64,000 nt of DNA from Skermanella rosea. Its GTDB lineage: Bacteria > Pseudomonadota > Alphaproteobacteria > Azospirillales > Azospirillaceae. A program made the position numbers and the translations under genes. Numbering within the stretch: position 1 is the stretch's first letter; each line of letters begins with the position of its first letter. Positions 48,194 to 51,434 of this stretch are shown here, piece by piece. The DNA lies in assembly GCF_016806835.2 (NCBI RefSeq), contig NZ_CP086111.1, forward strand, positions 5,077,471 to 5,141,470, read 5' to 3'. The notes under the pieces are model-generated. The model was not told where the DNA came from and made no database searches. It saw only the letters and a list, made by a program, of their open reading frames with translations.

Positions 48194-48388
48194 TCAGCCT
48201 TCCTGCGCGATGGTGAAGCGCATGTGGCAGTTGCTGCGGGTCGCCTCCGCCTGGGCCTGCCACTTGGACCGGGCCTTCTCATAGCTGTCGAACGGTCCGA
48301 ACATCTTCTGGGTGCCGTCCTTCATCTCGGAGAAACGGGTGTCCTTGTACTCGCCGCCGACGACCCAGAAACGATTGTTGCTTCCCAT
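48194..48388 (-). CDS. DUF4170 family small protein, 64 aa
   Basis: Small soluble protein with FWVVGGEYKDTRF, FGPFDSYEKARSKWQAQ and a C-terminal RSNCHMRFTI, which is how I recognise DUF4170. Function is unknown. ATG 48388 follows GGAGAG; ATG 48400 would add four residues. It lies downstream of aceA on the same strand (74 bases) and is followed by a strong terminator, so it is probably cotranscribed with aceA. Confidence 0.82.
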   Translation of the reverse strand: MGSNNRFWVVGGEYKDTRFSEMKDGTQKMFGPFDSYEKARSKWQAQAEATRSNCHMRFTIAQEG

Positions 48389-48462: not shown

Positions 48463-49752
48463 TCAGTGGAACTGGTCGCTCTCGGTGCTGTCCTTCATCG
48501 CGGTGGTCGAGGACTTGCCGCCCGACACCGCGACGCTGACCGCGTCGAAATAGCCGGTGCCGACCTCGCGCTGGTGCTTGACCGCGGTGAAGCCCTCCTT
48601 CTCGGCCGCGAACTCCTTCTGCTGGAGCTCGGAATAGGCCGCCATGCCGCGCTCCTTGTAGCCGCGCGCCAAGTCGAAGGTGGCGTAGTTCAGGCTGTGG
48701 AAGCCCGCCAACGTGACGAACTGGTACTTGTAGCCCATGGCGCCGATCTCCTGCTGGAAGCGGGCGATCGTGGCGTCGTCCAGGTTGGCCTTCCAGTTGA
48801 AGCTGGGCGAGCAGTTGTAGGCCAGCATCTTGCCCGGGAACTCCTTGTGGATCGCCTCGGCGAACCGGCGGGCGTCCTCCAGGTTGGGCTTGCTGGTCTC
48901 CCACCACAGCAGGTCCGCATAGGGCGCGTAGGCCAGGCCTCGGGCGATGCAGTAATCGACGCCGACGCCCTTCTTGATGCGGTAGAAGCCTTCCGGCGTG
49001 CGGTCCTCGCGGTCGATGAAGGGGTGGTCGCGCTCGTCGATGTCGGACGTGATCAGCTGCGCGCTCTCCGCGTCGGTGCGGGCCATCAGCAGGGTCGAGG
49101 TGCCGCAGACGTCGGCGCCCATGCGGGCGGCATTCAGCGTCCGGACGAACTGCTGGATCGGCAGCAGCACCTTGCCGCCGAGATGGCCGCACTTCTTCTC
49201 AGACGCGAGCTGGTCCTCGAAATGGACGCCCGCGGCGCCCGCCTCGATCATGGCCTTCATCAGCTCGAAGGCGTTCAGCGGCCCGCCGAAGCCGGCCTCG
49301 GCGTCGGCGATGATCGGCGCGAACCAGTAGGTGCCGGACTTACCTTCCATGTGGTGGATCTGGTCGGCGCGCTGGAGCGCGTTGTTGATACGCTTGACCA
49401 CCGACGGGACGGAGTTGGCCGGATAGAGGCTCTGGTCCGGGTACATGGATCCGGCCAGGTTGGCGTCGGCCGCGACCTGCCAGCCGGAGAGGTAGATCGC
49501 CTCCAGCCCGGCCTTGACCATCTGCATGGCCTGGTTACCGGTGAAGGCGCCCAGCGAATGGACGTAGGGGCGGGTGTGCAGCAGCTCCCACAGGCGCCGC
49601 GCGCCCAGTTCGGCCAGCGTGTACTCGATCCGGACCGAGCCGCTCAGCCGGGCCACGTCCTCCAGGGTGTAATCGCGCTTGATGCCGTTCCAGCGTTTGG
49701 CGTGGATTTCTTCGACGGCGTTGAAGCCGGTGCTGTGGTCGAGCGGTGCCAT
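48463..49752 (-). CDS. aceA: Isocitrate lyase
   Basis: First enzyme of the glyoxylate bypass: isocitrate to succinate and glyoxylate, needed for growth on acetate and fatty acids. The 429-residue product has the catalytic C188 in [31 protein letters not shown] and [12 protein letters not shown] 49752 follows AGAAGGAG. It is divergent from an ScfR/RamB-type regulator; malate synthase is not in this window. Confidence 0.96.
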
Positions 49753-49879
49753 GGTCGCGATCTCCTTCTTATACCCTTCTCCGGGGCCGGTGCCCCTGCC
49801 TGCATCGCTTCGGAAGGTGCGGTGCAGCGATGAACAACAGGTATCGCTATAATGCACGGCGAGCAATAAGTGCCTGATT

Positions 49880-49947
49880 GTAAAAGGGTAATCCTGTAAA
49901 GGTCAGTTACTCGCTTGCCGTAAATTCGTAAAGCTTGTAAATTTTGC
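49880..49947. promoter_or_regulatory. Cluster of GTAAA motifs, candidate ScfR/RamB operator region
   Basis: Five GTAAA sequences start at 49880, 49896, 49920, 49928 and 49937 within 62 bases of the aceA-regulator gap. The last forms an inverted repeat GTAAATTTTGC (49937-49947), close to the TTTGCAAA-type sites described for RamB/PccR relatives. A TATAAT at 49848-49853 is a possible -10 element. Binding is inferred. Confidence 0.5.
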
Positions 49948-49976
49948 GGCACTGCGGCGAAGACGGGGGACGGCCG

Positions 49977-51434
49977 GTGGGAGCGGACAAGAAGGCGATG
50001 CTGGGGCACAAGGTCCGCCGGCTGCGGCGCGACCACAACCTGACCCAGGCGCAGATGGCGGAGCAGCTCGGCATCTCGGCCAGCTACCTCAACCTGATCG
50101 AGCACAACCAGCGCCCGGTGACGGTCCAGCTCCTGCTGAAGCTGGGGCAGGCCTTCGAGATCGACCTCCAGGCCTTCGCCGAGGACGAGGAGAGCCGGCT
50201 GATCGCGGGGCTGCGCGAGGTGTTCGCCGACCCGCTGTTCGCCGGCAGCGACGTCAAGAACTCCGATTTCCGCGAGCTGGCCGCCGTCGCCCCGACCCTG
50301 GGCCAGGCGGTCGTCACGCTCTACCAGGCCTACCGCGAATCGCGCGAGGACATCGAGGCGCTGGCCGGGCGGGTGGCTGACCGCGACAAGCTCCAGGTCG
50401 TCCAGGCCGCGGCCTTCCCGGTGGAGGAGGTCCGCGATTTCTTCCACGCCCAGGGCAACCATTTCCCCGAGCTGGAAAGTGCCGCGGAGGAGTTGTGGAG
50501 CGACCTGAAGGTGGAGAGCGGCGACCTTTACCGCGGCCTGACCGACTTTCTCAGCCGCGCCCACGGCGTGCGCGTCAAGCTGATGCCGATGGACGTGATG
50601 GGCACCGGCCTGCGCCGGTTCGACCGGCACAGCCGACGCATCCTGCTGTCGGAGATGCTGCCGCCGAGCGGCCGCAATTTCCAGCTCGCCTGCCAGATCG
50701 CCCTGCTTCACCACCGCGACCTGTTGGACCGCCTCGCCGCCGGAACGTCCCTCTCGGGCGACGAGGCGCGGCGGCTGACCCGCATCGGGCTGTCCAACTA
50801 TTTCGCCGGCGCCGTCCTGATGCCCTACGACCGCTTCATCGAGGCGGCCCGGTCGGTCCGGTACGACATCGAGATCCTGGGCCACCGGTTCGACGCCAGC
50901 TTCGAGCAGGTCTGCCACCGGCTGACCACGCTCCAGCGGCCGGGCGCCAAGGGCGTGCCGTTTTTCTTGATCCGGGTGGACAACGCGGGCAACGTCAGCA
51001 AGCGGTTCAGCGCCGGCAGCCTGAACTTCGCGCGGTTCGGCGGCGCCTGTCCGCGCTGGAACGTCCATGACGCCTTCCGGTCGCCGGGGCAGATCATGAC
51101 CCAGCTGGCCCGGATGCCGGACGGCACGACCTATTTCAGCATCGCCCGCACGGTGGACAAGAGCGGCGGCGGCTGGCGCAGCCCGCCCCAGCAGTTCGCC
51201 ATCGGGCTGGGCTGCGACGTCGCCCATGCCGGGCAGCTGGTCTATGCCGAAGGCGTCGACCTGGACAATGTCGGCGCCGCGACGCCGATCGGCGTCAACT
51301 GCCGCCTATGCCCGCGCCTGGACTGCAGCCAGCGGGCCTTCCCGCCGCTGAACCACCGCCTGATCATCGACGAGAACCAGCGCGGCCTGTCCACTTACTT
51401 CTTCATACCGGGCCAGCAACAGACGGAACTTTGA
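49977..51434 (+). CDS. ScfR/RamB-type short-chain fatty acyl regulator (XRE family)
   Basis: A 485-residue regulator with an N-terminal XRE helix-turn-helix (about 10-65: NLTQAQMAEQLGISASYLNLIE), a middle domain like IrrE/ImmA peptidases but without HExxH (QIALLHHRDLLD), and a C-terminal domain with CRLCPRLDCSQRAFPP. RamB, PccR and ScfR relatives sense acyl-CoAs and control glyoxylate-bypass or propionate genes, which fits the divergent aceA. GTG 49977 is chosen for its GGGGGA Shine-Dalgarno; ATG 49998 is an alternative. Confidence 0.9.
   Translation: MGADKKAMLGHKVRRLRRDHNLTQAQMAEQLGISASYLNLIEHNQRPVTVQLLLKLGQAFEIDLQAFAEDEESRLIAGLREVFADPLFAGSDVKNSDFRELAAVAPTLGQAVVTLYQAYRESREDIEALAGRVADRDKLQVVQAAAFPVEEVRDFFHAQGNHFPELESAAEELWSDLKVESGDLYRGLTDFLSRAHGVRVKLMPMDVMGTGLRRFDRHSRRILLSEMLPPSGRNFQLACQIALLHHRDLLDRLAAGTSLSGDEARRLTRIGLSNYFAGAVLMPYDRFIEAARSVRYDIEILGHRFDASFEQVCHRLTTLQRPGAKGVPFFLIRVDNAGNVSKRFSAGSLNFARFGGACPRWNVHDAFRSPGQIMTQLARMPDGTTYFSIARTVDKSGGGWRSPPQQFAIGLGCDVAHAGQLVYAEGVDLDNVGAATPIGVNCRLCPRLDCSQRAFPPLNHRLIIDENQRGLSTYFFIPGQQQTEL

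Follow-up and report, generated by a model that had tools for sequence, protein, structure and literature searches.

The closest described counterpart of the locus analyzed here is the regulator RamB (Pden_1365) of Paracoccus denitrificans, which activates a glyoxylate-cycle promoter through two 14-bp boxes that are separated by an 18-bp spacer and are both needed (PMC10370305). This RamB protein is a tetramer that is converted to dimers by free CoA and some CoA esters; β-methylmalyl-CoA exerts the strongest effect, and acetyl-, propionyl- and butyryl-CoA are not among the esters described in the accessible part of that report (PMC10370305). A [4Fe4S] cluster has been reported for the protein by spectroscopy, and it has been suggested to act both as an activator and as a repressor (PMC10370305). 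The oligonucleotide printed in the same report, when read on the strand whose end is the presumed ramB start, shows AGTCAGTATTGTCA and TGTAAGGTTTGTCA at a distance of 32 bp. For Mycobacterium tuberculosis PrpR, the proposed operator consists of TTTGCAAA and TTTGCgAA one base apart (PMC6765138). The class 1 RamB of Corynebacterium glutamicum recognizes the operator AA/GAACTTTGCAAA and represses aceA and aceB (PMC4448153).

The window studied here, a stretch of 64,000 nucleotides from Skermanella rosea, carries an isocitrate lyase gene, aceA, which is the sole gene of this genome matching the ICL family, and divergent from it a ramB-like gene for an ScfR regulator. The features of the locus, with offsets given relative to an anchor at 49928, are as follows.

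48463..49752, minus strand: aceA, isocitrate lyase; open reading frame with ATG at 49752, Pfam ICL match at 1e-103.
49753..49976, no strand assigned: divergent control region between the aceA ATG and the GTG of the regulator.
49864..49869, plus strand: CAATAA block (TTATTG on the aceA strand), a putative alternative core-promoter element of aceA that recurs in most family gaps.
49877..49906, minus strand: weak sigma-70-like promoter candidate for aceA, CTGACC - 18 - TACAAT.
49880..49884, plus strand: GTAAA at -48, found mainly in the family of the window and overlapping the candidate aceA -10.
49888..49909, plus strand: box 1 group with GTAAT 49888 (-40), GTAAA 49896 (-32) and GTTA 49906 (-22); 49895-49908 is the counterpart of the published box 1.
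49920..49941, plus strand: box 2 triplet with GTAAA at 49920 (-8), 49928 (0) and 49937 (+9); 49927-49940 is the counterpart of the published box 2.
49942..49949, plus strand: TTTTGCGG, which adds another 9-bp step and looks like the known ScfR word TTTGC; comparable sequence is present in 4 other gaps out of 28.
49977..51434, plus strand: ramB-like ScfR regulator of 485 amino acids with HTH_3, an M78/IrrE-like domain without HExxH, and a ScfRs C-terminal domain with CX2CX4C.

The GTG at 49977, rather than the TTG at 49944, is most likely the start codon of the regulator, since most of its orthologues start at or near the matching place; with this start, the array of GTAAA words lies wholly within the gap. 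HTH_3, Peptidase_M78 (IrrE-like; 1.6e-24) and ScfRs (4.4e-72) each scored above their Pfam cut-offs, in agreement with an initial annotation of this DNA that had seen in the protein a probable acyl-CoA-responsive regulator whose IrrE-like domain lacks HExxH. The HExxH zinc motif of IrrE/ImmA-type metallopeptidases is indeed absent from all 485 amino acids, and a metalloprotease function was consequently rejected. Comparison with the structures of Mycobacterium PrpR (6CZ6 and others) gave matches as strong as about 1e-102; out of 399 aligned residues, 167 (42%) are identical. The cysteines named for the [4Fe4S] cluster of PrpR, CX2CX4C plus a fourth, are found in the regulator as C351, C435, C438 and C443 (numbered from ATG 49998), and each of the 31 loci compared (31/31), that of the window and two paralogue loci among them, has all four. 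Among the basic residues with which PrpR contacts CoA (K217, R338, K347, K410), the regulator keeps two, R326 and K335, and has the other two replaced (K217 by L205, K410 by Q398). As far as the accessible part of the PrpR report allows the comparison, the two proteins thus share their sequence family, the cluster ligands, the lack of HExxH and a 9-bp step between operator words, which in the window carries TTTGTAAA-like words; they differ in that PrpR governs the methylcitrate cycle, that GC replaces GT in its word, and that two of the four basic CoA contacts are different here (PMC6765138). The RamB protein of C. glutamicum shares with the present regulator its name and target pathway, but in the portion of its description considered here it is a class 1 repressor of aceA and aceB with the word TTTGCAAA (PMC4448153). 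A small DUF4170 gene (48197-48388, minus strand) follows directly after aceA and is possibly co-transcribed with it.

Five GTAAA words are present in the gap, at 49880, 49896, 49920, 49928 and 49937, all of them on the plus strand, which is that of the regulator; they span 62 bases (49880-49941), just as the initial annotation had counted them. A scan of 49841-49990 for GTNA added the degenerate words GTAAT 49888, GTCA 49902 and GTTA 49906, which had been overlooked at that stage; the first and the last agree with the pattern conserved in relatives, and GTCA 49902 does not. Both strands of the 64-kb window together hold 12 GTAAA words, a number near the average of 9.38 (sd 3.26) obtained by shuffling, so that the clustering alone is unusual and not their number. 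The array is AT-rich (GC 0.39), as a chance accumulation of such words in AT-rich intergenic DNA would have it; yet when a 102-base segment holding the array was put through 20,000 mononucleotide shuffles, 62 bases never contained more than three GTAAA (four in 0/20,000), and the pattern is conserved, so that chance clustering is refuted for all practical purposes. The pattern GTAAA-N3-GTAAA-N4-GTAAA has a single exact match in the 7.76-Mb genome, the present array; with 2 mismatches it recurs at 2 further places, and a reversed control pattern at 3. A genome pattern with one N too many, GTNANNNNTTGTNA, gave 22 matches versus 22 in controls and was uninformative. The last GTAAA was previously noted to form GTAAATTTTGC; this word does exist (49937-49947), but only 5 gaps out of 28 (L001, L003, L004, L011, L030) have a TTTGC or TTTAC after the last GTAAA, and we dropped it as a special element.

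We compared related loci, chiefly from the Azospirillaceae, which we take to be the family of the window and its close relatives. A search for the regulator in 59 genomes, our own included, gave a match in 40. We examined 31 loci. In 28 of them, the regulator has a divergent ICL-like gene as its neighbor: the window, 26 relatives (aceA 79-99% identical) and L030, whose ICL-like gene is a 31% match. The other three are the PccR-type paralogues L002 and L031, and L029, which had no ICL match in its fetched flanks. GTAA-N5-GTAA is present in all 28 gaps with a divergent ICL-like gene. The initial annotation had considered that the motif might be missing from relatives with the same gene pair; we found the core box in 26 of 26 relatives with a divergent aceA/regulator pair. 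When 23 of these gaps were aligned (A2, which omits the near copies L010, L024, L025 and L027, and L030 with its other gene pair), the majority of the invariant columns coincided with the GTAAA words; a further alignment (A3), from which L023 was additionally omitted, used 22 of the 28. All five GTAAA words are intact, with the steps found in the window, in five other gaps (L006, L007, L009, L010, L011). In L018, L021 and L026, the aceA-ramB gap measures 648-1016 bases and apparently contains inserted reading frames (judged by eye), with the array on the aceA side.

For the architecture of the array, we analyzed 44 regulator representatives that are less than 70% mutually identical and were drawn from the best 80 of at least 589 confirmed relatives; a second set had 31. 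Boxes were scored with a matrix built from 29 loci and a threshold of 10 bits, in which the box 2 triplet (25.0 bits) is the top site of the window. On the regulator strand, 39 of the 44 representatives pass 10 bits, as opposed to 7 of 44 on the other strand (drawn from the best 80 of at least 589). Relative to the best box, which served as the anchor so that words at 0 and +9 are present by construction, extra GTNA words occur at -8 in 20/39, at -40 in 10/39, at -32 in 8/39 and at -22 in 6/39; the GTNA background is 0.0165 per position and the best unassigned offset, -66, reaches 5/39. By these counts, the offsets -8, -40 and -32 appear solid and -22 weak, being hardly above -66. The words at (-40, -32, -22) and (-8, 0, +9) resemble two copies of a single triplet with a 32-bp period. 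The former proposal of a multi-site switch is supported insofar as the array is a multi-site control element of isocitrate lyase, but it does not consist of five equal sites; the words instead fit two spaced groups like the two-box operator of class-2 RamB, and 49880 may belong to the aceA promoter.

The published Paracoccus operator, whose sequence was not part of the training, allowed an independent comparison. The matrix scored its box 2 at 10.6 bits, a value equaled in 4 of 2000 shuffles; its box 1 fell below the matrix's 3-bit reporting limit, and hence one of the two tested boxes was recovered. In both organisms, an ScfR regulator is divergent from glyoxylate-cycle genes, box 2 is close to the ramB start, and two boxes with a 32-bp period lie in the same orientation on the regulator strand; half-sites are about 9 bp apart, with GTAAGGTTTGTCA and GTCAGTATTGTCA there and GTAAAGCTTGTAA here; and the cluster cysteines are present here where the Paracoccus cluster itself has been seen by spectroscopy (PMC10370305). 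Set against what the accessible part of that report describes, the present locus differs in having aceA alone in the divergent position with no gene between, in its GTAAA half-sites, in a third half-site 8 bp upstream in each box, in the extra word at 49880, and in a box 1 step of 10 bp versus 9 (PMC10370305). With respect to membership in class 2, the regulator is divergent from aceA in the window and in 26 family loci, and the two boxes with their 32-bp period and half-site step of about 9 bp are found on the regulator strand, box 1 of the window being degenerate (GTAAA-N5-GTTA, 10-bp step). Taken by its sequence, the array is very probably the operator of the adjacent class-2-type RamB.

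The words might alternatively form the operator of some other direct-repeat regulator, for instance a PhoB/OmpR-like one, with ramB being a mere neighbor. CTGTNAC-like direct repeats in some relatives resemble direct-repeat operators generally and Pho boxes in particular; Pho boxes have a step of 11 bp, against the 8-10 bp between the half-sites here. The distribution of the array points away from such a regulator as well. We built a search model of 50 positions, trained on family loci, and scored up to 150 first-look candidates per genome. The window genome gave one match, at aceA/ramB (E 5.4e-6; up to 150 candidates scored), and 18 of 39 genomes, our own included, gave one match each at E <= 0.01, all 18 of which adjoin the regulator by their coordinates. 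Full-length aceA is present in 18 of the 23 family genomes (own included), and the array match was found in the identical 18, beside ramB, so that the array tracks RamB and aceA across these 23 genomes; the other five (G003, G004, G008, G009, G019), some of them fragmented drafts, are without array, RamB orthologue and full-length aceA. Since the model was trained on family loci, it was bound to find the family sites again; this does not apply to the co-absence or to the single match per genome (among up to 150 candidates). Considering further that equivalent boxes have been tested for RamB in Paracoccus (PMC10370305), we regard an unrelated regulator as very unlikely and retain RamB as the protein that would read the array. 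G003 and G004 belong to the genus of the window and lack full-length aceA, a RamB orthologue and the array; both possess the PccR-type paralogue only, and the whole module looks to have been lost there.

Outside the family, the model gave no match in G043, G044, G046 and G048, which contain full-length aceA. G043 nevertheless has a 27.3-bit box. In G046, aceA is divergent from a 42%-identical regulator, and the sites are weak, with 3.9 bits on the strand of the regulator and 9.7 bits on the opposite one. The aceA genes of G044 and G048 are without RamB; a match of 11.3 bits was found within 0.9 kb in the former and none in the latter. At G043:C1:681200-684100 (L152), a malate-synthase-like frame (assigned by eye) seemingly lies between aceA and ramB, an order like that of Paracoccus.

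The box itself reaches further. Among the best 80 of at least 589 confirmed relatives, a set of named genomes ranging from Azospirillum and Niveispirillum to records labelled Acidobacteria, Myxococcales, Sorangium and Geothrix, a strict GTAA-N5-GTAA within 400 bases upstream occurs on the regulator strand in 42/80 and on the opposite strand in 1/80. By the matrix at 10 bits or more, the corresponding values in these best 80 of at least 589 are 67/80 versus 8/80, made up of 58/69 outside and 9/11 within the family of the window. Thirteen of the 80 regulators were without a box at 10 bits, possibly through misplaced starts or diverged sites. Two of them, L049 and L068, are family members; the 11 others, which include both Sorangium rows and the named Geothrix row, are not.

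Another reading takes the words, in part or as a whole, for core-promoter or UP-element sequence of aceA and ramB that is kept for RNA polymerase and not for RamB. Counted from the start of the regulator, the boxes of at least 10 bits range from about -25 to -159 bases, which is not where its core promoter would be expected, and their inner steps are fixed, with a spacing equal to that of the tested RamB operator. The word at 49880 does overlap TACAAT, the sole promoter-like match in 49700-50050 (shuffle mean 0.0, sd 0.2). No conserved -35 was found in relatives for either candidate aceA -10 (TACAAT 49882-49877; TTATTG 49869-49864), and the sigma-70-like candidate is weak for this reason. As an explanation of the array, a polymerase element is highly improbable, and it may hold for the 49880 word alone, since this word is mainly restricted to the family and overlaps TACAAT.

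With the array taken as the RamB operator, the direction of control remains to be considered. RamB could bind the array and repress aceA until a CoA ester releases it, as the Corynebacterium protein, a repressor of aceA and aceB (PMC4448153), and the suggested dual action of Paracoccus RamB (PMC10370305) might lead one to expect. The class-2 RamB protein of Paracoccus, with an equal operator layout, activates its glyoxylate-cycle promoter (PMC10370305), and ccr is encoded in the window genome above its cut-off, which makes a Paracoccus-type logic possible. By this analogy, RamB probably activates aceA, and we consider repression unlikely.

Carrying DNA binding, activation and ligand sensing over from Paracoccus RamB and Mycobacterium PrpR to a locus whose gene pair, array, conservation, strand, spacing, co-absence and cluster cysteines can be read directly from the DNA, we propose the following course of events. 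A RamB oligomer would read direct (T)TTGTAAA half-sites that follow one another at 8-10 bp and form two groups with a 32-bp period. When bound to both groups, with box 1 over the predicted -35 region of aceA and box 2 upstream, it would probably activate the divergent aceA gene; from box 2, it would probably also tune its own gene, as proposed because this box is just ahead of the ramB start. Both the autoregulation and this promoter geometry are deduced from the arrangement of the sites. CoA esters in a [4Fe4S]-dependent cavity would set the oligomeric state and hence the switch. The array is best read as the docking site of RamB, described in Paracoccus as an acyl-CoA-sensing switch of the glyoxylate bypass.

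The window genome holds one other ScfR, 49% identical to the regulator (G000:C1:3071912-3073321, L126), which adjoins pccB/pccA-like frames (assigned by eye) and provides a natural in-genome comparison for RamB. Both belong to the ScfR family and have a 9-bp step between their upstream words. The words of this PccR-like paralogue, however, are GCRAA, as in TGCGAAG-TTTGCGAA, and no GTAAA is present in the 330 bases upstream of it; moreover, it has Gln at HTH residue 33 where RamB has Leu. Gln at this position is restricted to two PccR-like rows. Leu33 was found in 84 of the 89 regulators whose box reached at least 12 bits, but also in 18 of the 22 that stayed below 12 bits, so that HTH residues as a specificity code are no more than a lead.

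The initial annotation had suggested a search for the motif near malate synthase and propionate genes. The 6.5 kb surrounding the only malate synthase gave no good box (2.4 bits at best), nor did the surroundings of the paralogue and the pcc-like genes (2.7 bits at best) or those of ccr (3.9 bits at best), and a regulon extending over malate synthase, pcc and ccr was rejected.

The array is real and conserved, and is largely explained by the published circuit. Three points are new as far as we have seen: the GTAAA box recurs in the family and also across phyla, each box has an additional half-site 8 bp upstream, and the locus is split from the GCAAA-type paralogue; among the papers listed in our literature search, we judged no other to describe the present operator in the family of the window. 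The Paracoccus circuit would thereby be extended to this family and, judging from the conserved sites, to regulators in records labelled Acidobacteria and Myxococcales, and the array offers a precise, mutable operator. More speculatively, class-2 RamB may read two sets of three direct GTAAA half-sites, or an even longer series, exceeding the four DNA-binding domains of one tetramer; an ester-driven change from tetramer to dimer would then alter the number of words filled and give a graded or cooperative switch, and a single base (GTAAA for RamB, GCRAA for PccR) would separate the glyoxylate and propionate regulators. We hold this reading to be doubtful, and somewhat more so than at the outset because the word at -22 is only slightly above the unassigned offset. 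If the triplets hold true, they raise the question of how a CoA-ester-sensing tetramer or dimer reads six or more direct half-sites.

Beyond the array, the leader of aceA contains a GTGCGGCGCAC inverted repeat, located in the window at 49817-49827 and at equivalent positions 107-118 bases before the box 2 anchor in other gaps. It is absent at that distance from the remaining gaps, perfect in L013, L014 and L016, and present with 1-2 mismatches in L001 (the window), L004, L005, L012, L015, L017 and L018; of 1400 shuffles, 1 yielded perfect matches. This repeat is possibly the site of a second regulator or a leader structure.
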